A stretch of DNA of 64,000 bases from Thiobacillus sp. (lineage in GTDB: Bacteria > Pseudomonadota > Gammaproteobacteria > Burkholderiales > Thiobacillaceae), in the NCBI RefSeq assembly GCF_030696885.1, contig NZ_JAUYRI010000027.1, forward strand, positions 1 through 64,000, written 5' to 3'. The notes below the pieces were generated by a model. That model was not told the DNA's origin and did no database searches. It worked only from the letters and a program-made list of their open reading frames with translations. This document shows, piece after piece, positions 49,671 to 62,737 of this stretch. The position numbers were made by a program, and so were the translations under genes. Position 1 is the first letter of the stretch. The number at the start of each line of letters is the position of its first letter.

Positions 49671-52352
49671 ATGTCTGTCGTTTCATCTGTCTGCTGTTAT
49701 TGCGGCACCGGTTGCGGGGTGCTGATCGAGGCCGACGCCGGAAAAATCACCGGCGTGCGCGGCGATCCCGCGCACCCGGCCAACCGCGGCAAGCTGTGCA
49801 CCAAGGGTGCGGCGCTGGCGCTGTCGGCGCAGGCGTCCGGGCGTGCGCTCTATCCCGAGCTGCGCGCCGACCGCGCCTCGCCGCGGCGGCGGGTGAGCTG
49901 GGACGCCGCGCTCGACCACGCCGCCGAAAAATTCCGTACGGTCATCCTCGAGCACGGCCCTGATGCCGTCGCCTTCTATATTTCCGGCCAGCTCACCACC
50001 GAGGCGTATTACGTCTTCAACAAGCTCGCCAAGGGCCTGATCGGCACCAACAACGTCGACACCAATTCACGCCTGTGCATGTCGTCTGCGGTGGCCGGTT
50101 ACAAGGCCACCCTTGGCGCGGATTCGCCGCCGGGCTGTTACGACGATATCGATCATGCCGGCACGATCTTCATCGCCGGCTCCAACACGGCCTATGCGCA
50201 CCCGATCCTGTTCCGCCGCATCGAAGCGGCGAGGAAGGCCCATCCGGACCTCAAGCTGATCGTGGTCGACCCGCGCCGCACCGACACCGCCGACGAGGCA
50301 GACCTGCATCTGGCCATCCTGCCCGGCACTGACGTTGCGCTGTTCCACGCCATGCTCAACGTGATGCTGTGGGAGGAACTGATCGACCGCGCCGCCATCG
50401 CCGCTCACACCGAAGGCTGGGAGGCGCTGCGCGATCTGGTGCGCGACTACACCCCGGAGAAAGTTGCGCCGATCTGCGGCGTGGCGGCAGGCGATATCGT
50501 TCAGGCGGCGCGCTGGTTCGCCGCCGGGCCGACACTGTCGCTGTATTGCCAGGGGCTCAATCAATCCAGCTGCGGCGTCGATAAGAACGCCGCGCTGATC
50601 AACCTGCATCTGGCCAGTGGACAGATCGGCAAGCCCGGTGCCGCGCCGTTTTCGCTCACCGGCCAGCCCAATGCGATGGGCGGTCGCGAGGTCGGCGGGC
50701 TGGCCAACCTGCTGTCCGCCCACCGCGACATGAACAATCCCGAGCACCGCGCCGAAGTCGCGCGGCTGTGGGGGGTGGATGACGTGCCGGCGACGCCGGG
50801 CAAGACCGCGGTGGAAATGTTCGAGGCGGTGCGGCGTGGCGAGATCAAGGCGATCTGGATCGCCTGTACCAACCCCGCGCAGTCGATGCCCGACCAGAAT
50901 CTGGTGCAGCAAGCCCTGGAGGCCGCCGAATGCGTGGTGCTGCAGGAAGCGTTTGCCGACACCGAAACCGCGCCGTTTGCGGATCTGCTGCTGCCCGCGT
51001 CCAGCTGGGGCGAAACCGACGGCACCATGACCAATTCGGAGCGCTGCATCACGCGCGTTCACGCTGCCGTGCCACCCCCGGGCGAAGCACGCGCCGACTG
51101 GGCCATCGTCACCGACTTTGCGCAGCGTCTGATGCCCGACCTGGGTGCGCGCCTGTTCCCCTACACCAGCGCCGAAGCCGTGTTCAACGAGCACCGCGAA
51201 ACCACGCGCGGGCGCGATCTCGACATCACCGGTCTCTCCTATGCGCTGCTCGACCAGGCGCCGCAACAATGGCCGTTTCCCGAAGGCGCGGCCTCGGGCC
51301 AGGCGCGCCTGTATGCCGACGGCGTCTATCCGACCGCCAGCGGTCGCGCGCGCTTTCATGCCGCACCCTACCGACCGGTGGCGGAAGCGATCGACGCGCG
51401 TTTTCCGCTGCATCTCAACACCGGCCGCCTGCGCGACCAGTGGCATGCGATGAGCCGCACCGGCCGCGTGGCGCGGCTGTTCGCCCACGCCGACACGCCT
51501 GTGCTGAGCATGAACGCGCGCGACCTCGAGCTGCGGCGGTTGAACGCAGGCGACCTGGTCCGGGTGAAAAGTCGTCGCGGCGAAGTGGTCGTGGTGGCCG
51601 AGGCCAGCGACAGCGTGCGCCCCGGACAGTGTTTCCTGCCGATGCACTGGGGCGCGCGCTTCATGGGCGGGCGCGGCATCAATGCGCTGACCCTGCCGGC
51701 ATTCGACGCGGTGTCGAAGCAGCCCGAGCTCAAGCACGCTGCGGTGCAGGTGGCCAAGGCCGTGCTGCCCTGGCGCATGGCCGCGCTGGCGGTGGGCGAC
51801 GGGGCGAAAATGCTCGATGCCGTGCAGCCACTGCTGCGCGCCTGCGACTACGCCGCGGCGGGGCTGGCCGGGCGCGACCGCGATGTACTGACGCTGCGCC
51901 TCGCCCACACGCAGCCGCTGCCCGAATCGTTGTTGGCCGAACTCGACGCCGCGCTGGGGCTGGACGATCCGCTTGCTGTGATGCATTACGAAGACCGTCC
52001 ACGCGGCATATCCAAGCGCGTGCGGGTCGACGGCGGCACGGTGACCGCCGCGCGGCTGACCGGTGAGACCGCCGCCTTCGACTGGCTGCGCGACGTCATC
52101 GTCGATGGCATCGACGCCGCCTCGCTGCGCGCCTGGATGCTGGCACCGGTGGCGCGTCCGCCAGCAGGCGGGGCAGGGCGCGGACGCATTGTCTGTAATT
52201 GCTGGAACGTGGCCGAGCCCGACATCCTCGCTGCCATCACGGCCGGCGCCGACCTCGCCACGCTGCAGGCCACGCTCAAATGCGGCACTGAATGCGGTTC
52301 GTGCGTGCCGGAACTGAAACGCCTGATCGCAGGCAACCGGGCGGCGGCATGA
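49671..52352 (+). CDS. nasA: Assimilatory nitrate reductase catalytic subunit with C-terminal BFD-type [2Fe-2S] domain
   Basis: CCYCGTGCGV 4Fe-4S motif; molybdopterin motifs (NTNSRLCMSSAV, GSNTAYAHPI); C-terminal CNCWNVAEPDI...CGTECGSC. Confidence 0.93.
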   Translation: MSVVSSVCCYCGTGCGVLIEADAGKITGVRGDPAHPANRGKLCTKGAALALSAQASGRALYPELRADRASPRRRVSWDAALDHAAEKFRTVILEHGPDAVAFYISGQLTTEAYYVFNKLAKGLIGTNNVDTNSRLCMSSAVAGYKATLGADSPPGCYDDIDHAGTIFIAGSNTAYAHPILFRRIEAARKAHPDLKLIVVDPRRTDTADEADLHLAILPGTDVALFHAMLNVMLWEELIDRAAIAAHTEGWEALRDLVRDYTPEKVAPICGVAAGDIVQAARWFAAGPTLSLYCQGLNQSSCGVDKNAALINLHLASGQIGKPGAAPFSLTGQPNAMGGREVGGLANLLSAHRDMNNPEHRAEVARLWGVDDVPATPGKTAVEMFEAVRRGEIKAIWIACTNPAQSMPDQNLVQQALEAAECVVLQEAFADTETAPFADLLLPASSWGETDGTMTNSERCITRVHAAVPPPGEARADWAIVTDFAQRLMPDLGARLFPYTSAEAVFNEHRETTRGRDLDITGLSYALLDQAPQQWPFPEGAASGQARLYADGVYPTASGRARFHAAPYRPVAEAIDARFPLHLNTGRLRDQWHAMSRTGRVARLFAHADTPVLSMNARDLELRRLNAGDLVRVKSRRGEVVVVAEASDSVRPGQCFLPMHWGARFMGGRGINALTLPAFDAVSKQPELKHAAVQVAKAVLPWRMAALAVGDGAKMLDAVQPLLRACDYAAAGLAGRDRDVLTLRLAHTQPLPESLLAELDAALGLDDPLAVMHYEDRPRGISKRVRVDGGTVTAARLTGETAAFDWLRDVIVDGIDAASLRAWMLAPVARPPAGGAGRGRIVCNCWNVAEPDILAAITAGADLATLQATLKCGTECGSCVPELKRLIAGNRAAA

Positions 52353-52416
52353 TGAGCCAACGCAATTCCCGTCATTGCGAGTACCCAAGCTTCGCATCCT
52401 TCGCGGATACAAAACC

Positions 52417-53382
52417 ATGAGCTACGCGACCCTGATCCGCCAGATCGAAGCCGGCGAGGACCTGAGTTTCACCGAGTCGCGCGCATTGGGGGCGGCCCTG
52501 CTCGACGGCGGCGTGCCGGAACTGGAGACGGCGGCCTTCCTGGTCGCCTTCAATCAGCACAACCCGGGGCTCGATGCCTGGCTCGGCCTGCACGCGGCAT
52601 TGGCCGAGCGACTGCCCGAATTCGGGGTGCCGTCGGGCCCGTTTCGTACCGTGGTGCTGCCCACCTATCACGGTGTACGTGGGTTTCCGCACCTGACGCC
52701 GCTTTTGGCCCTGCTGCTCAAAAGCTTTGGCATTCCGGTGCTGATCCATGGCGTGCTCGAAGGCGGCGGCGGCACGGCAGCAGCCTACGTGCTACGCGAG
52801 CTCGGCATCATGCCGTGCAGCACCGCGGCGCAGGTCAATGCGGCATTGCTGGATGAGGGCGTCGCATTTGCGCCGGTGGCGCTGTTGAGTCCCGGCCTGG
52901 CGTCGCTGCTGGCGCTGCGTTCGCGACTCGGCATCGACGGCTGGGTGACGCGGTTGGCGATGCTGGCCGACGTGGCGGGCGCGCACTCGGTACGGGTGAC
53001 GCCGGTGCCGACGGCCGCTGACCTGCCTGGCGTGCGCAGCGTGCTGGAAGCGCTGGGCGGGCACGCCCTGCTGCTGCAGGGCTGCGAGGGCGAAGCGTTT
53101 GCCGACCCGTTGCAGCGGCCCGAGATGGTGCTGGTACAGGACGGGCAGTCCCTGCCGGTGTACGAGGCACAATCGACGCCGTCGGTGCAGGCCAATCTGC
53201 CCGAGGGGGATGCGCGTGCGACCGGCGCCTGGATCGACAGGGTGATGCGCGAGCAGTTGCCGCTGCCGTTGCCGATCCGCAATCAGCTGGCGGTGTGCCT
53301 CTTTGCAGCGGGCTATACCGAGGACCTCAACCAGGCGCGCGCAATCACGGCCATCAATGGTTTCGGGCGGGCGGCCGCGTAG
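52417..53382 (+). CDS. ybiB: YbiB/TrpD2-like glycosyltransferase/phosphoribosyltransferase-fold protein
   Basis: IRQIEAGEDLSFTESRALGAALLDGGVPELETAAFLVAF...GVRGFPHLTPLLALLLKSFGIPVLIHG. Confidence 0.8.
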   Translation: MSYATLIRQIEAGEDLSFTESRALGAALLDGGVPELETAAFLVAFNQHNPGLDAWLGLHAALAERLPEFGVPSGPFRTVVLPTYHGVRGFPHLTPLLALLLKSFGIPVLIHGVLEGGGGTAAAYVLRELGIMPCSTAAQVNAALLDEGVAFAPVALLSPGLASLLALRSRLGIDGWVTRLAMLADVAGAHSVRVTPVPTAADLPGVRSVLEALGGHALLLQGCEGEAFADPLQRPEMVLVQDGQSLPVYEAQSTPSVQANLPEGDARATGAWIDRVMREQLPLPLPIRNQLAVCLFAAGYTEDLNQARAITAINGFGRAAA

Positions 53383-53385
53383 ACG

Positions 53386-53421
53386 TGGTGCACGCGCTGC
53401 GGTTTGGCACTGCGTTGGTGC
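53386..53421 (+). promoter_or_regulatory. Candidate pair of NtrC sites upstream of nirB
   Basis: TGGTGC half-sites at 53386-53391 and 53416-53421, 30 bp apart; the second lies in GCACTGCGTTGGTGC (53407-53421). Confidence 0.5.
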
Positions 53422-53497
53422 ATGGCGCCTCGCGCCGATCCCGATGGCCCGAAAAGAATCCCTGTTAAAACAATACCGTTTGCGTGCCCAGCCCGCA

Positions 53498-53513
53498 TGG
53501 CATAGCGATTGCT
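53498..53513 (+). promoter_or_regulatory. Candidate sigma-54 promoter of nirBD
   Basis: TGGCATagcgaTTGCT, near-consensus TGGCAC-N5-TTGCW. Confidence 0.7.
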
Positions 53514-53588
53514 AGGTGTAGGGCAGGTAGACCGAATGCAACGGCGTATCTCGGTCATCACTTTTGATTTTTCGTTTGGAGTGGTGAG

Positions 53589-56045
53589 ATGGATATGAGT
53601 ACGCCGATGGGACAGGGTCCCAAAATGAAACTCGTGATGGTCGGCAACGGCATGGCCGGAGTGCGCACGCTGGAAGAGCTGCTGAAGCTGGCGCCCGACC
53701 TCTACGACATCACCGTGTTTGGCGCCGAGCCGCACCCCAACTACAACCGGATTCTGCTCTCCCCGGTGCTCGCCGGCGAGCAGACGGTCGACGACATCGT
53801 GCTGAACCCGCTCGACTGGTACAACCAAAACAACATCACGCTGCACCTGGGCAAGAAGGTGGTGAAGATCGACCGCACCGCGCGCGCGGTCGAAGCCGAC
53901 GACGGCACCCGCGCCGGCTACGACCGCCTGCTGCTTGCCACCGGCTCCAATCCCTTCATCCTGCCGGTGCCCGGCGCCGACCTGCCTGGTGTCATCAGCT
54001 TTCGCGACATTGCCGACGTCGACGCGATGATCCGCGCTTCCAGCCAGTATCGTCATGCCGTCGTCATCGGCGGTGGCCTGTTGGGTCTCGAAGCCGCCAA
54101 TGGCCTGATGAAGCGCGGCATGGACGTGACCGTCGTGCACATCGGTCCGTGGCTGATGGAGCGCCAGCTCGATGAACCGGCCGCGCGCCTGCTGCAGAAG
54201 AGCCTGGAAGAAAAAGGCATGAAGTTTCTGCTTCAGAAGCAGACGGCCGAGTTGGTTAAGGGCGAGTCCGGAAGGGTGTGTTCGATCAAGTTCAAGGACG
54301 GCGACAGCGCGCCGGCCGATCTGGTCGTGATGGCCGTGGGCATCCGTCCCAACACCGAACTCGCCGAATCATCGGGCCTGCACTGCAACCGCGGCATCGT
54401 CGTCAACGACACGATGCAGACCTTCGACCCGCGCATCTACTCGATTGGTGAGTGCGCCGCGCACCGCGGCATCGCCTACGGTCTGGTTGCGCCGCTGTTC
54501 GAGCAGGCCAAGGTGTGCGCCAACCATCTCGCACACTACGGCATCGGCCGTTATCAGGGCTCGATCACCTCGACCAAGCTCAAGGTCACCGGCATCGATC
54601 TCTTCTCGGCCGGCGATTTCATCGGCGGCGAAGGCACCGAGGCGATCCTCTATTCCGACCCCATCGGCGGTGTCTACAAAAAGCTCGTCATCAAGGACAA
54701 CAAGCTGGTCGGCGGCGTGATGTACGGCGACACCGTCGACGGCGCCTGGTATTTCTCACTGCTGCGCGACGGCAAGGACGTGTCCGAGCTGCGCGACCAC
54801 CTGATGTTCGGCCAGGACCATTGCGGCAACCTCGGCCACCAGGGCATCAACAAGGCCGCGACCATGACCGACGACATGGAAGTGTGCGGCTGCAATGGCG
54901 TATGCAAGGGCGACATCGTCAAGGCGATCCGCGAGAAGGGCCTGTTCACGCTGGAAGATGTGCGCAAGCACACCAAGGCCTCGAGCTCTTGCGGATCGTG
55001 CACGGGTCTGGTCGAACAGATCCTGGCGGTCACCGCGGGCGGCGATTATTCCGCCACGCCGAAGACGAAATCTATGTGCGGCTGCACCGACCACACCCAC
55101 GAAGCGGTACGCGAAGCAATCCGCCAGAACAAGTTCCTGACGATTCCGCAAGTCATGACCTTCATGGAATGGCGCACCCCAAACGGCTGCGCAAGCTGCC
55201 GCCCGGCGCTGAATTACTACCTGATCTCCACCTGGCCGGGCGAGGCGGAGGACGATCCGCAGTCGCGCTTCATCAACGAGCGCGCCCACGCCAACATTCA
55301 GAAAGACGGCACCTATTCGGTGATCCCGCGCATGTGGGGCGGGCAGACCACGCCGTCCGAGTTGCGCCGCATCGCCGACGTCGCCGACAAATACGCGATC
55401 CCGTCGGTCAAGGTCACCGGCGGTCAGCGCATCGATCTCTTGGGCGTGAAGAAGGAAGACCTGCCGGGCGTATGGGCCGACCTCGACATGCCGTCGGGCC
55501 ACGCCTATGGCAAGGCGCTGCGTACGGTGAAAACCTGCGTCGGCTCGGAGTGGTGCCGCTTCGGCACCCAGGATTCGACCCAGATGGGCATTGACCTGGA
55601 GAAGGTGTTCTTCAAGATGTGGGCGCCGCACAAGGTCAAGCTCGCGGTATCCGGCTGCCCAAGGAACTGCGCCGAAGTCGCGATCAAGGACGTCGGCATC
55701 ATCGGCGTCGATTCCGGCTGGGAAATCTACGTCGGCGGTAACGGCGGCATCAAGACCGAGGTCGCGCAGTTCCTGGTCAAGGTGAAAACCCCCGACGAGG
55801 TGCTCGAATACTCCGGCGCCTTCCTGCAGCTGTATCGCGAAGAGGCGCGCTACCTCGACCGCACCGTGCATTACCTCGAGCGCGTCGGCCTCGACTATGT
55901 GAAGAAGAAAATCCTCGACGACAACGAAGGCCGGCATGCGCTGTACGAGCGCCTGCTGTTCGCCCTGTCGGTCGAACGCGACCCCTGGGTCGAGCGCGCC
56001 AAGGAAGGCAAGCTCAAGCACGAATTCGAAACCGTCGCCGCATAA
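53589..56045 (+). CDS. nirB: Nitrite reductase (NAD(P)H) large subunit
   Basis: FAD/NAD domains, BFD-type CGCNGVCKGDIV...CGSCTG, siroheme/4Fe-4S site GSEWCRFGTQDST...SGCPRNCAE. Confidence 0.97.
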   Translation: MDMSTPMGQGPKMKLVMVGNGMAGVRTLEELLKLAPDLYDITVFGAEPHPNYNRILLSPVLAGEQTVDDIVLNPLDWYNQNNITLHLGKKVVKIDRTARAVEADDGTRAGYDRLLLATGSNPFILPVPGADLPGVISFRDIADVDAMIRASSQYRHAVVIGGGLLGLEAANGLMKRGMDVTVVHIGPWLMERQLDEPAARLLQKSLEEKGMKFLLQKQTAELVKGESGRVCSIKFKDGDSAPADLVVMAVGIRPNTELAESSGLHCNRGIVVNDTMQTFDPRIYSIGECAAHRGIAYGLVAPLFEQAKVCANHLAHYGIGRYQGSITSTKLKVTGIDLFSAGDFIGGEGTEAILYSDPIGGVYKKLVIKDNKLVGGVMYGDTVDGAWYFSLLRDGKDVSELRDHLMFGQDHCGNLGHQGINKAATMTDDMEVCGCNGVCKGDIVKAIREKGLFTLEDVRKHTKASSSCGSCTGLVEQILAVTAGGDYSATPKTKSMCGCTDHTHEAVREAIRQNKFLTIPQVMTFMEWRTPNGCASCRPALNYYLISTWPGEAEDDPQSRFINERAHANIQKDGTYSVIPRMWGGQTTPSELRRIADVADKYAIPSVKVTGGQRIDLLGVKKEDLPGVWADLDMPSGHAYGKALRTVKTCVGSEWCRFGTQDSTQMGIDLEKVFFKMWAPHKVKLAVSGCPRNCAEVAIKDVGIIGVDSGWEIYVGGNGGIKTEVAQFLVKVKTPDEVLEYSGAFLQLYREEARYLDRTVHYLERVGLDYVKKKILDDNEGRHALYERLLFALSVERDPWVERAKEGKLKHEFETVAA

Positions 56046-56054
56046 GGAGCCGAC

Positions 56055-56387
56055 ATGAACCAATGGACCGACATCCTGGACCTGAACGACATCCCCAAAC
56101 TCGGCGCCCGCGTGGTGCGCCACGGCAACCTCGACATCGCGGTGTTCCGCACCGCAGACGATGAAGTCTTCGCGCTGGAAGACCGTTGCCCGCACAAGGG
56201 CGGGCCGCTGTCGCAGGGCATCGTGCACGGCAAAAAGGTGACCTGCCCAATGCACAACTGGAACATCGAGCTTGATTCCGGCTGCGCCATCGCGCCGGAC
56301 CAGGGCTGTGCACGGGAATTTCCCGTCAAGCTCGAAGGCGGGCGCGTGTGGCTGGATCTGTCGACGCTGGCGCGAGTCGCCGCCTGA
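56055..56387 (+). CDS. nirD: Nitrite reductase (NAD(P)H) small subunit, Rieske-type
   Basis: EDRCPHKGGPLSQGIVHGKKVTCPMHNWNI. Confidence 0.96.
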   Translation: MNQWTDILDLNDIPKLGARVVRHGNLDIAVFRTADDEVFALEDRCPHKGGPLSQGIVHGKKVTCPMHNWNIELDSGCAIAPDQGCAREFPVKLEGGRVWLDLSTLARVAA

Positions 56388-56503
56388 GCTGCGCCTAACC
56401 CGCCGCTCAAGAGGAACGCTTCGCCGGCAAGCGGGCTTCGTGCTCCTGAGATAGCACCTTGGACGAGTGGGGGTAGGGCTTTTAGGAAAGGAGATTGGCC
56501 GTA

Positions 56504-57565
56504 ATGTCCTCAAACCATAAAAACGTTACGCCGGAACGGATCAACGTATTGTCGGATAGCATCCAGAAAAAGCTGGCCAAGTCCCTGAGTGAAATCAACC
56601 AGATCAATATGCAGGCGCACTTGCTGTCGTTGAACGCGCAGGTGGAAGCGGCGCGGGCGGGGGAGGCGGGGCGTTCGTTCGCGGTGGTGGCGATATCGAT
56701 GCGGGATTTGTCGGAGGAGACGAAGAGCGCCGCCGACTGGTTGGCGAGCGAAGTGCAGCATGACATCGGAGAGCTGTCGCATATCAGCAAGCAGCTGGCG
56801 ACCGATGTGCGCGGCCAGAGGCTTTCTGACCTGGCATTCAACAACATCGATTTGATCGACCGCAACCTCTACGAGCGCTCGTGTGACGTGCGTTGGTGGG
56901 CAACGGATCCGAGCATGACGGCGGCGTGCAAGGCGCCGGACAACGCGGAACTGGCGAAACATGCCTCAAAGCGGATGGGCGTGATCTTGAACGCGTACAC
57001 GGTTTATTTCGATTTGGTTTTGTGTGCGCCGGACGGCAGGATCATCGCCAACGGGCGTCCGGGAGAGTTCCGGACGGTGGGAATGCAGGTCGCTCAGTGC
57101 CGGTGGTTCAAGGAGGCCTTGGCCACACGGTCGGGAGATGAATTCGGGTTCGAAACGGCGCACGCGACGCCGCTGGTCAACGGGCAGCGGATCTTGGCGT
57201 ATTCCTGCGCGGTACGTGAAGGCGGCGAGAGCCACGGAAACATCGTGGGAGTGCTGGGCATCCTGTTCCGCTGGGATGCCCTGGCGCAGACAGTGGTGAG
57301 CAATACGCCGCTGCTGGAGAGCGAGAAGTCCAGCACGCGCGTGATGATCGTGGACAAGACGGGATTCGTGCTGGCCGACACGGGCGACGGGACGTTGCGG
57401 GACCGGCTGGATTTCAAGGGCATGAATGCGCTGTTCGAGCAGAAGAAGGGCTTTGTATTGACTGACTACAAAGGCGGCCCGGCGATGGTGGCCCACGCGT
57501 TTTCGCGAGGATTCGAAACGTATTCGACGGGCTGGCATTCCGTGATCGTCCAGAGCTTGCGGTAG
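56504..57565 (+). CDS. Soluble chemoreceptor-like protein: N-terminal MCP signalling tip plus C-terminal Cache-like domain
   Basis: INQINMQAHLLSLNAQVEAARAGEAGRSFAVVAISMRDLSEET (MCP tip) then LYERSCDVRWWATDP...VYFDLVLCAPDGRIIANGRPGEF; no obvious TM segment. Confidence 0.85.
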   Translation: MSSNHKNVTPERINVLSDSIQKKLAKSLSEINQINMQAHLLSLNAQVEAARAGEAGRSFAVVAISMRDLSEETKSAADWLASEVQHDIGELSHISKQLATDVRGQRLSDLAFNNIDLIDRNLYERSCDVRWWATDPSMTAACKAPDNAELAKHASKRMGVILNAYTVYFDLVLCAPDGRIIANGRPGEFRTVGMQVAQCRWFKEALATRSGDEFGFETAHATPLVNGQRILAYSCAVREGGESHGNIVGVLGILFRWDALAQTVVSNTPLLESEKSSTRVMIVDKTGFVLADTGDGTLRDRLDFKGMNALFEQKKGFVLTDYKGGPAMVAHAFSRGFETYSTGWHSVIVQSLR

Positions 57566-58110: not shown

Positions 58111-59565
58111 ATGAAGATCGATTGCGGGAGCTACCCGCTGATGGGCGGGTATGACGAGTTGCTGGAAGCGCCGGGCAAGCCGCGCGACGGCGCAGGCGGC
58201 CTGTGCGATTACTTCGCCGAGTTGCCTGCGGATGAACTCGAGGCGCGCCACCATGCCGTCGACGCGGCCATCATGGCGGCGGGGATCACCTTCACCGTGT
58301 ATTCCGAGGCGGGCAATATCGACCGTGCCTGGCCCTTCGACGTGGTGCCGCGCATCATCGACAAGCTCGAGTGGGACCACATCGAGGCCGGGCTGAAGCA
58401 GCGCCTGAAGGCGCTCAACTGCTTCATCGACGACATCTATCACGCGCAGACGATCGTCCGCGACGGCGTGTTTCCGGCCGAGGTGCTGGCCGATTCGAAG
58501 AATTTTCGTGCAGCCTGCGTCGGCGCTAATCCGCCGTTCGGCGTGTGGGCGCACATTTGCGGCACCGATCTCGTGCGCGACGGCGACGGCACGGTCTACG
58601 TGCTGGAAGACAACCTGCGCGTGCCCTCGGGGGTGTCCTACATGCTGGAAAACCGCCAGCTGATGAAGCGGCTGTTTCCCGAACTGTTCGCGCGCTACGA
58701 CGTGCTGCCGGTCGACGATTACACCGCGCAGCTCTACGACACCCTGGCCGCGCTGTCGCCGCGCGAGGACGAGCGGCCGGAAATCGCGGTGCTCACGCCC
58801 GGCGTCTTCAACTCGGCCTACTTCGAGCATTCCTATCTGGCGCAGCAGATGGGCGCGCATCTGGTGGAGGGCCCCGACCTGGTGGTGCTGGACGACGACT
58901 GCGTGTACATGAAGACGATCGAGGGGCTGACCCGTCTCGACGTCATCTACCGCCGCATCGACGACGATTTCATCGACCCGGAAGTCTTCCGCGCCGATTC
59001 GGCGCTGGGCGTGCCAGGCCTGATGCGCGCCTGGAAGGCCGGCAAGGTCGGCATTGCAAATGCGCCCGGCGCAGGCGTGGCCGACGACAAGGTGGTGTAT
59101 GCCTATGTCCCCGAAATGATCCGCTACTACCTCGGCGAGGACGCGATCCTGCCCAACGTGCCGAGCTATCTGTGCATGAACGAGGCTGACCGCGAGTACG
59201 TGCTGGCGAATCTGGACAAGCTGGTGGTCAAGCCGGCCAACGAGTCGGGCGGCTACGGCATGCTGGTGGGGCCGAAGTCGACCGCGGAAGAGCAGGCGAT
59301 CTTCGCCGACCTGATCCGCGCCAACCCGCGCAACTACATGGCGCAGCCGACCCTGTCGCTGTCCACCGTGCCGACGCTGTGCGACGGCGCCATCGAGCCG
59401 CGCCACGTCGACCTGCGTCCGTTCATCCTGCAGGCGCGGGACATGTACGTCACGCACGGCGGGCTCACCCGCGTGGCCCTGCGGCGCGGGTCGCTGGTGG
59501 TGAACTCGTCGCAGGGCGGCGGCAGCAAGGACACCTGGATCATTCAGGGAGACGCATCGTGCTAG
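58111..59565 (+). CDS. Circularly permuted ATP-grasp protein (COG2308/DUF404-407 type)
   Basis: FDVVPRIIDKLEWDHIEAGLKQRLKALNCFIDDIY...VLEDNLRVPSGVSYMLENR...VKPANESGGYGMLVGP. Confidence 0.93.
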   Translation: MKIDCGSYPLMGGYDELLEAPGKPRDGAGGLCDYFAELPADELEARHHAVDAAIMAAGITFTVYSEAGNIDRAWPFDVVPRIIDKLEWDHIEAGLKQRLKALNCFIDDIYHAQTIVRDGVFPAEVLADSKNFRAACVGANPPFGVWAHICGTDLVRDGDGTVYVLEDNLRVPSGVSYMLENRQLMKRLFPELFARYDVLPVDDYTAQLYDTLAALSPREDERPEIAVLTPGVFNSAYFEHSYLAQQMGAHLVEGPDLVVLDDDCVYMKTIEGLTRLDVIYRRIDDDFIDPEVFRADSALGVPGLMRAWKAGKVGIANAPGAGVADDKVVYAYVPEMIRYYLGEDAILPNVPSYLCMNEADREYVLANLDKLVVKPANESGGYGMLVGPKSTAEEQAIFADLIRANPRNYMAQPTLSLSTVPTLCDGAIEPRHVDLRPFILQARDMYVTHGGLTRVALRRGSLVVNSSQGGGSKDTWIIQGDASC

Positions 59566-60515
59566 CCCGCGTCGCCGAAAACCTGTACTGGATGGCGCGC
59601 TATCTCGAGCGCGCCGAGGACACCGCGCGCCTGATCAACGCCGCCACCATGATGCTGATGGACATGCCGCGCGGCGCCAGCTTCGGCTGGGAGGACCTGC
59701 TCAGGGTGGTGGGTCTGGACGAGGATTTCCACCAGCACTACGACGAGGCGAGCGAAACCGCGGTGATGAGCTTTCTGATCCAGGACGAGCGCAATCCGTC
59801 GTCGATCTTCGCCTGCGTGCGCCACGCGCGCGAGAACACCCGCACCTTCCGCGAGGTGCTGCCGCGCGAATCGTGGGAGTGGGTCAACGAGCTCTACCTC
59901 TACACCAGCACGCACAAGAGCAGCGCGCTCGACCGCCGCAAGCGCATCGAGGTGCTGACCGAGATCATCCGCCGCCGCCAGGCCGTGGTCGGTCTGCTGT
60001 CCGGCACCATGAGCCGCGACGAGGCCTTCCAGTTCATGCGGCTGGGGCGCAATATCGAGCGCGCCGACATGACCACGCGCGTGCTCGACGTCAGCTATGC
60101 CATCAACCTGCCGTTCCAGGACAGCCAGTACCACGACCTCATCTGGATGAGCGTGCTGCAGGCCCTGTCGGCGCACCAGATGTACCGCCGCCACGTCAGC
60201 GTGCATGCCAAGGGCCACAAGGTGCTGGCCTTCCTGCTCAACGATATTCAGTTCCCGCGCAGCGTGCGCCACTGTCTGCACGAGATCCAGTTCGCCCTCG
60301 ACGAGTTGCCCGGCGTCGAGCCGATGCGGCGCCTGCAGGGCATGCTGAACCTGGTGGACGGCGCCGATTACCGTGTGCTGGCAAAGAACGGGCTGCACGA
60401 ATTCTGCGACGACATCCAGGCCCGGCTGGCCGACCTCAACACGGTCATCGGCGAGACCTACTTCCGCGCGGCGCATCCGCAAAAGATGAGCCAATCCCTG
60501 TTTAACCTGGTTTGA
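59559..60515 (+). CDS. Alpha-E domain protein (COG2307/DUF403)
   Basis: MLARVAENLYWMARYLERAEDTARLINA; GTG start overlapping the upstream stop. Confidence 0.93.
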   Translation: MLARVAENLYWMARYLERAEDTARLINAATMMLMDMPRGASFGWEDLLRVVGLDEDFHQHYDEASETAVMSFLIQDERNPSSIFACVRHARENTRTFREVLPRESWEWVNELYLYTSTHKSSALDRRKRIEVLTEIIRRRQAVVGLLSGTMSRDEAFQFMRLGRNIERADMTTRVLDVSYAINLPFQDSQYHDLIWMSVLQALSAHQMYRRHVSVHAKGHKVLAFLLNDIQFPRSVRHCLHEIQFALDELPGVEPMRRLQGMLNLVDGADYRVLAKNGLHEFCDDIQARLADLNTVIGETYFRAAHPQKMSQSLFNLV

Positions 60516-60519
60516 CCCC

Positions 60520-61752
60520 ATGGCCGCATCGCTCGGTTTTCCCCGCTTCGGCGACAAGCAGAACTCGCCCCAGTTCGAGGACTACCTCGGCCAGTTGCTG
60601 GAGGAGCGCGACCGCATCGGGCTGACCGAAGCCATCCGCCAGATCGATGCGCTGATGATCACTGTCGAGCCCAGCCATTCGGTCGCCTATGTCGCCGAGC
60701 TGTGCGTGATGACGCCCTACCATTATTTGGTCACGCTCGAATCGGAATCGCACTTCACTCACATCCTGCGCATCGACATGAGCGCGCCCGACCTCCTGGT
60801 GCGCGAGGTCAAGGACCCCAATGTGCGCGGCATCTTCCGCAGCCTCAACGAGGTCTATCCCATCGGTGCGGTCAAGCCCAACTCGCGCTACATGGGCGAG
60901 GTGCTGCGCGTCACCGACCCGCACGCCGTGGTCGACATGCAGAAGGCGCGCGACATCCGTTTCTTCAACCAGGACCAGATCCGTAAGCTCGAACTGCCCG
61001 GCAACATGGCCGTGGTCAAGCCCAGCCCCTACACCCACAACATCGTCGCCTATTGGGAGCGCCCCGAGTCCGATGTCCGCGTCTATGCGCTGGGCTGGAG
61101 CAGCATCCGCGACGACATGCAGGCCGCTTACGAAGGCGCGAAGGCCACGCAGAAAAAGCTCGGCATCGACGAACTGTTGCTGCCGATCGACCATCTCGCC
61201 ACCCGCATCTACAGCCAGAACCGCGAAGCCGCCATCCTCGAATACCTCACGCTGTCGAGCTATTACTACTGGGGTTCCTATGACATCGCCGACCAGAACT
61301 CGTCGACCAACGTCACCAAGAGCGTGCATTTCGCCAACGAGCTCGAATCCCCGGCCAAGGTGTTTACCGCGGCGAACCATCCCTACTTCATGAACCATTT
61401 GCTGACCGAGTCGCCCACCGAAGCCTTCGTGCGCAACTTCGGCCCGCGCCTGCATCACATCGCGGTGGCCGTAAAGGATGGCGAAACCGAAGCCCAGGCC
61501 AACATCGATTACGTCGTGGCCTCGCTGCGCGACTGCGGCCAAAAATTCCTGCTCGACGTCATCGGTTCGAAGGAAGCGGGTTTGAAGCAGATCTTCTCCA
61601 GCGCCTCGGAATATTCCTCGCTCATCGTCGAATACGTCCAGCGCTTCGGCGGCTTTCAGGGATTCTTCACCAAGGACAACGTCGCCGAGCTCACGCATGC
61701 CGCGGGCGTGGAGGAAAGCCTGCGCGCGTTGCAGAAAGAGGCGCAGGCGTGA
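60520..61752 (+). CDS. VOC-superfamily protein with 4-hydroxyphenylpyruvate dioxygenase-like C-terminus
   Basis: LPIDHLATRI, RLHHIAVAV, LKQIFSSASEYSSLIVEYVQRFGGFQGFFTKDNVAELTHA match HPPD-like metal-ligand blocks (DH, HHIA, E-x-x-QR). Confidence 0.65.
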   Translation: MAASLGFPRFGDKQNSPQFEDYLGQLLEERDRIGLTEAIRQIDALMITVEPSHSVAYVAELCVMTPYHYLVTLESESHFTHILRIDMSAPDLLVREVKDPNVRGIFRSLNEVYPIGAVKPNSRYMGEVLRVTDPHAVVDMQKARDIRFFNQDQIRKLELPGNMAVVKPSPYTHNIVAYWERPESDVRVYALGWSSIRDDMQAAYEGAKATQKKLGIDELLLPIDHLATRIYSQNREAAILEYLTLSSYYYWGSYDIADQNSSTNVTKSVHFANELESPAKVFTAANHPYFMNHLLTESPTEAFVRNFGPRLHHIAVAVKDGETEAQANIDYVVASLRDCGQKFLLDVIGSKEAGLKQIFSSASEYSSLIVEYVQRFGGFQGFFTKDNVAELTHAAGVEESLRALQKEAQA

Positions 61753-61840: not shown

Positions 61841-62737
61841 ATGATTCATATCCGGTTTTCGATCGACCTCAGCTACGAAGTGATTGGCCGGCCAGCCGAT
61901 TTCATTTTCAATATCCACGCTGCGCCCACCGCCCATCAGCTCATCCTTAGGGAATCACTGACGATCAGCCAGCCGCTGTCGTCGACCATTTACGATGATC
62001 CGCTGCTTCGTCACCGGCTGCTCCGTCTGCGCGCCAACCCGGGTCCGCTCAAGATCAGCTATCAGGCAGAAGTCGACATCCGCCATCATGTCGCCCAGCC
62101 GGAAAAGATTGCGGAAATGCCGATTGCCGATTTGCCGACGGAAGTGCTGCCCTATCTTTACCCGAGCCGGTATTGCGAATCGGACAGGCTGCAGCAACTG
62201 GCCAACCAGACCTTTGGCCACCTGCCGCCCGGCTACCAGCGGGTTGAGGGCATCCGTAAATGGGTGCAGGAACGCACCCACTTCACCTCCGGCAGCAGCA
62301 ATTTCACCACCTCCGCCATCGACACCTACCAGCAGCAGGCGGGCGTTTGCCGTGATTTCGCGCATCTGATGATCGCCCTGTGCCGCGCCCTCAACATCCC
62401 CGCGCGCTTCTGTTCGGGCATCGATTACGGCGCCGACCCAGCCTTCGGGCCGACCGACTTTCATGCCTATGTCGAAGTCCTTCTCGGCGGGCGCTGGTTT
62501 ATTTTTGACCCGTCGGGCATGGCCGTGCCGATGGGTTTTGTGCGCATCGGCACCGGGCGTGACGCGGCGGATATTTCCTTTGCCACCATCTTCGGGGATA
62601 TCAAGTCCGACGTGCCCGTGCTAGCCATCGAGGCGATCGATGACCCAACCCGCGGCTACGTGCTGCCCTGGCGCTGCCCCGAAGCCCTGTCGACCGATGC
62701 GCTGATTGCCATCCCCGGTAAAGGCGGTGAGGAATAA
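61841..62737 (+). CDS. Transglutaminase-like (COG1305) protein
   Basis: QQQAGVCRDFAHLMIALCRALNIPARFCSG...DFHAYVEVLLGGRWFIFDPS Cys-His-Asp triad. Confidence 0.93.
   Translation: MIHIRFSIDLSYEVIGRPADFIFNIHAAPTAHQLILRESLTISQPLSSTIYDDPLLRHRLLRLRANPGPLKISYQAEVDIRHHVAQPEKIAEMPIADLPTEVLPYLYPSRYCESDRLQQLANQTFGHLPPGYQRVEGIRKWVQERTHFTSGSSNFTTSAIDTYQQQAGVCRDFAHLMIALCRALNIPARFCSGIDYGADPAFGPTDFHAYVEVLLGGRWFIFDPSGMAVPMGFVRIGTGRDAADISFATIFGDIKSDVPVLAIEAIDDPTRGYVLPWRCPEALSTDALIAIPGKGGEE

Follow-up and report, generated by a model that had tools for sequence, protein, structure and literature searches.

The HPPD/HMS lineage is known for herbicide and nitisinone targets, and the VOC scaffold on which its members are built also serves several non-oxygenase reactions. 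HglS (2-oxoadipate dioxygenase/decarboxylase; PF07063, DUF1338) is an Fe(II) enzyme with a VOC-like fold that acts on a 2-oxo acid. Our other point of reference is the operon of the proteasome homologue Anbu. In the sections of two structure papers that deal with this operon, ATP-grasp, Alpha-E, transglutaminase and Anbu are presented as a conserved four-gene unit of unconfirmed function, for which roles in making peptides or tags, or in protein degradation, are proposed (PMC5666114, PMC6376114). According to the same sections, Anbu showed no activity towards standard proteasome substrates, opinion is divided between peptide synthesis and degradation, and a rise in Anbu under nitrogen limitation is reported for P. 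putida (PMC5666114, PMC6376114). No dioxygenase or glyoxalase is mentioned in these operon descriptions of PMC6376114 and PMC5666114, and a literature search pairing Anbu with a dioxygenase gave nothing relevant among the matches listed.

We focus here on a gene in a 64,000-nucleotide stretch of Thiobacillus sp. DNA (contig NZ_JAUYRI010000027.1, positions 1 to 64,000), which as a whole we call the window. The family of putative HPPD-like metalloenzymes that it represents is new; the HPPD/HMS fold and the four-gene Anbu operon are already known. With HPPD (TIGR01263) and HMS (PDB 2r5v) the protein has in common the predicted two-domain, four-module VOC fold over its whole length and a putative His-His-Glu triad whose order and strand positions match. 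Its second ligand spacing, however, is about 20 residues shorter than that of HPPD, and its N-terminal half carries no HPPD sequence signal. HglS, on the other hand, shows no profile similarity to it (HHalign probability 0.1%), nor is there a Pfam match to PF07063, and an HglS/DUF1338 identity was rejected because this profile similarity is absent. As for the Anbu operon, the neighbours of the gene are the operon's own proteins and carriers of the gene have Anbu, whereas the operon, in the sections cited above, comprises four genes; the HPPD-like gene comes on top of these, as an accessory that a minority of Anbu genomes possess.

A constrained gene in a narrow family

The gene encodes 410 amino acids and occupies 60520..61752 of the + strand; its assignment to a new family of putative HPPD/HMS-fold VOC metalloenzymes draws on conservation, predicted fold and profile alignment. 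The reading frame had been proposed from the letters of the DNA, and it proves to be a real and constrained gene: comparison with close Thiobacillus-like orthologs gives dN values of 0.037-0.050 and dS values of 0.42-0.55, a dN/dS of about 0.08-0.1. An antisense ORF of 398 codons (60502-61698, - strand) covers nearly the whole of it. This frame was rejected as the gene, and is probably a high-GC artefact, because the strong purifying selection is on the + strand.

A single pattern scan across GTDB genomes turned up 206 relatives of the protein, and the locus analysis covers the best 80. These 80 come from Thiobacillus and other Hydrogenophilales, Gallionellaceae, Acidithiobacillus, Methylophilaceae, Methylomonas and others. 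The orthologs show 61 to 95% identity to the protein, and the most divergent intact member, L151, is 61.5% identical. The family is narrow, with matches in 23 of 274 genomes in a profile search of the class of one Methylomonas carrier. At two series of loci (L016-L038, L065-L071) the ATP-grasp and Alpha-E neighbours are less well conserved than the HPPD-like protein itself (72% and 52% identity versus about 82%, for example), which suggests tight constraint on the latter. One genome (G361) holds two full-length copies on separate contigs (L142, L155). Broken or partial copies occur at L152/L156, L153/L158/L159 and L154; in G474 a break near residue 222 divides the frame, stops and frame changes interrupt the copy of G524, and in G581, where the adjoining ATP-grasp and Alpha-E genes look intact, no more than the N-terminal 40 residues match. 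Some lineages appear to have lost the enzyme. Plasmids, viral contigs and the PHROGs and PADLOC models gave no match to the protein, and a phage, plasmid or defence origin was rejected on these grounds.

Predicted fold and metal triad

Since sequence searches of the PDB with the protein gave nothing significant, its link to HPPD rests on fold and profile comparison. NCBIfam, TIGR01263 included, likewise gave no match even at E <= 1, and the best Pfam match, Glyoxalase_4, reached 13.8 bits, under the cut-off of 27. AlphaFold models were obtained for the protein of 60520-61752 (47 sequences, pLDDT 72.7, pTM 0.78) and for its L151 ortholog (68 sequences, pLDDT 79.5, pTM 0.84), and the strands and helices of both can be read as four beta-alpha-beta-beta-beta modules, at roughly residues 39-97, 125-195, 220-285 and 311-373. 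In Foldseek searches with the two models, all 50 PDB matches listed per search are HPPD, HMS or an HPPD fusion, the best being 2r5v for the former (E 2.3e-11) and 8im2 for the latter (E 2.6e-12), each at probability 1.00; full-length TM is about 0.5-0.56 with an rmsd of about 6 A, so that domain orientation is uncertain. The models support a predicted full-length HPPD/HMS architecture of two domains and four VOC modules. An HPPD C-domain joined to an unrelated N-domain was rejected, as VOC modules are predicted throughout both models. The sequence-only reading had held that about 200 N-terminal residues do not look like HPPD. This stands for the sequence of that region, in which nothing resembles HPPD, but not for its fold, since the region is predicted to form two VOC modules like those of the HPPD N-domain.

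The same reading had picked out His225, His313 and Glu371, within the motifs DH, HHIA and VEYVQR, as candidate metal ligands. All three are present as described and are invariant in every intact ortholog aligned, whether in a set of 81 sequences or in one of 68 that is more diverse. His225 (codon 61192..61194, + strand; context D224-H225) lies in the first strand of module 3 and aligns to the His of HPPD DHLTHNV. His313 (61456..61458, + strand; H312-H313-I-A) lies in the first strand of module 4 and aligns to the His of GIQHIA, and Glu371 (61630..61632, + strand; V370-E371-Y-V-Q-R), in the last strand of that module, aligns to the Glu of FFEIIQR. In both models, the three residues fall on strands of modules 3 and 4 that are the counterparts of those bearing the iron ligands in HPPD and HMS, and so, at strand level, are not predicted to lie apart.

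A free profile-profile alignment with 30 bacterial HPPDs placed H225, H313 and E371, unprompted, on the HPPD iron ligands, in the order that had been expected of an HPPD-type dioxygenase. This alignment scored 32.6 against 27.9 for the best of 300 column shuffles, and a broader one (68 sequences) scored 32.4 against 26.2 for the best of 200. As the score is above all 500 column shuffles, the coincidence of the putative triad with the HPPD ligands is, as far as profiles can tell, more than chance, and profile-profile comparison does recover similarity to a VOC protein; the HHalign probability to HPPD is low, at 15-16%, with P 0.0016 for the alignment at 16%. The two ligand spacings are 88 residues (H225-H313) and 58 residues (H313-E371), versus about 78 and about 79-82 in the bacterial HPPDs extracted here. 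The second value had rightly been thought short for HPPD, and in the profile-profile alignment the gap falls immediately ahead of the QIF strand. The C-terminal likeness to HPPD noticed at the outset also holds, in the form of a QIF ... E-x-V-Q-R ... G-F ... N block common to both. In the pocket, Q357 and F359 of the QIF motif and the C-terminal Asn, N387, are kept, N286 matches by eye only, and two positions differ from HPPD: His312 stands in place of the Gln that precedes the second His ligand, and a Pro aligns with a further pocket Gln. Because the pocket is partly kept and partly changed, the substrate is expected to differ from that of HPPD. The fold and the triad of the family are thus supported, and the view of the protein as a divergent HPPD relative with a complete putative metal triad is upheld by the Foldseek matches and the profile similarity.

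Genomic association with the Anbu system

What the sequence-only reading missed is the company that the gene keeps, namely the ATP-grasp, Alpha-E and transglutaminase genes that flank it and the link to Anbu. Upstream, a circularly permuted (CP) ATP-grasp ligase (PF14403, Pfam E 2.7e-166; 58111..59565, + strand, likely start ATG 58111) is overlapped at its stop by the ORF of an Alpha-E protein (PF04168, Pfam E 1.5e-86; 59559..60515, + strand, likely start GTG 59559), which 4 bases separate from the HPPD-like gene. Downstream lies a transglutaminase-like protein (PF01841, Pfam E 1.6e-22; 61841..62737, + strand, likely start ATG 61841), the ortholog of which beside L151 is 61% identical. Beyond the window, the same contig holds another transglutaminase-like ORF (contig 65388-66242; L161 1888-2742). 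The Anbu gene of this genome, whose identity is confirmed by its similarity to Anbu chains of solved structure (best E 7.5e-77), is at contig 80420-81202, about 19 kb downstream of the HPPD-like gene, and a TGase-DUF2126 putative amidoligase (contig 67769-71179; L161 4269-7679) lies between the two.

Among the best 80 of the 206 relatives, Alpha-E or ATP-grasp is directly upstream in tandem at 47 loci, and one or both are found in the fetched stretch at 59, in tandem, divergent and downstream arrangements; the 21 loci with neither in the fetched flank (5 of which have short flanks) include most of those from Acidithiobacillus. Anbu itself falls within the fetched flank at 15 of these 80 loci. 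It is directly upstream of the HPPD-like gene and co-directional with it at L041 and L051, and at L166, where the most divergent ortholog sits, a co-directional run of six genes reads ATP-grasp, Alpha-E, Anbu, TGase-DUF2126, HPPD-like gene, TGase. Nif genes adjoin the cluster at L166. In the window, just upstream of the cluster, 56495-57565 encodes a protein in which a Cache sensor domain comes, unusually, after a methyl-accepting chemotaxis signalling domain. Further upstream of the Anbu-type genes, 49671-56387 carries nitrate-assimilation genes, for a molybdopterin nitrate-reductase-like protein, NirB and NirD, with a YbiB-like protein between; several Thiobacillus loci also have nitrate-assimilation genes beside the cluster, and NirB is upstream also at L001, L002, L004, L008, L010 and L013.

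At the level of whole genomes, Anbu is present in 20 of 20 carriers of the HPPD-like gene and CP-ATP-grasp in 19 of 20. In a sample of the phylum, Anbu was found in five of six carriers versus 101 of 299 genomes (34% of the Pseudomonadota sampled), and CP-ATP-grasp in all six versus 157 of 299 over the cut-off (Fisher tests within this sample, P 0.018 and 0.020, respectively). Over the two sets, in both of which the genome studied here figures, 24 of 25 distinct carriers have Anbu, relatedness being ignored, and the carrier with no Anbu match is G108. Pooled binomial values for the co-occurrence are far smaller than the Fisher P values, again with relatedness ignored. An association of the HPPD-like gene with the Anbu system in genomes is supported. 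The gene is nevertheless an accessory and not a core component of that system, because most Anbu genomes are without it. The nitrate-assimilation genes here and the nif genes at L166, together with the rise of Anbu in P. putida described above, suggest nitrogen conditions as a lead to a phenotype.

Candidate chemistry and competing explanations

On balance we favour the explanation that the family is a new HPPD/HMS-type mononuclear metal enzyme with a 2-His-1-Glu triad, accessory to the Anbu/CP-ATP-grasp/Alpha-E/transglutaminase(-DUF2126) system, and that it would oxidise a 2-oxo-acid-like compound that the amide ligases of this system use or make. From the HPPD/HMS lineage we infer the use of O2, a 2-oxo-acid-like substrate and the place in the pathway. 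By this analogy, H225, H313 and E371 would hold the metal, probably Fe(II), and the substrate would chelate it through a 2-oxo-acid or similar group; O2 would be activated and the substrate oxidised, a step that in HPPD and HMS goes with decarboxylation. The substrate itself would be a building block or a product of the system's amide ligases, ATP-grasp and DUF2126.

The main rival keeps the fold and the partnership but makes the enzyme a VOC-type lyase, epimerase, hydrolase or decarboxylase, in which the metal would serve a non-oxygenase reaction and for which the system would supply a peptide or amino-acid derivative as substrate. VOC enzymes are generally known to carry out several such reactions on the same scaffold, the pocket residues are partly unlike those of HPPD, and the one carrier genome with nif genes beside the cluster suggests at least some low-oxygen lifestyles. 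The nearest folds, however, all belong to HPPD/HMS-type oxygenases with the same 2-His-1-Glu set, and we regard a non-oxygenase as unlikely, though well worth bearing in mind. We give distinctly less credence to an enzyme that acts alone in ordinary 2-oxo acid metabolism, with its adjacency to ATP-grasp and Alpha-E a habit of lineage that has no functional meaning. Its separation from these genes in most Acidithiobacillus and at several other loci would fit such an enzyme, as would the many Anbu-containing genomes, the majority, that do without it, yet the same partners recur in several different arrangements, and those unlinked carriers that were tested encode CP-ATP-grasp and Anbu at other places in their genomes.

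That the protein is a divergent HPPD serving tyrosine breakdown, as its fold, triad and C-terminal block might invite one to think, is hardly credible, given that TIGR01263 is unmatched even at E = 1 and that HmgA is above cut-off in none of 20 carrier genomes (with one weak match). HPPD is above cut-off in one of these 20 and absent in the other 19, and the lone bearer has its true HPPD in addition to the HPPD-like gene. The genome studied here has neither a TIGR01263 match nor HmgA, and the remark in the sequence-only reading that tyrosine-catabolism neighbours are absent proved correct. With no HPPD model match and no homogentisate pathway, identity as a true HPPD was rejected.

An HPPD-lineage oxygenase accessory to the Anbu system, the explanation that we favour, would tie a metabolic enzyme to a proteasome homologue and would extend the HPPD/HMS lineage to a setting without tyrosine catabolism. 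Anbu is common (about one-third of the Pseudomonadota sampled), and an enzyme with recognisable chemistry is consistently found to accompany it. Its presence suggests that the Anbu system includes a step on a small molecule or a modified amino acid, and so gives a chemical clue to that system. More tentatively, and with somewhat less than even confidence, we propose that the Anbu/ATP-grasp/Alpha-E/transglutaminase-DUF2126 set may make or process an amide-linked small molecule or tag, which in many sulfur oxidisers, methylotrophs and their relatives would be oxidised by a hitherto undescribed Fe(II) oxygenase of the HPPD lineage. The family offers a target for gene deletion, a protein for assay and a metabolite worth seeking.
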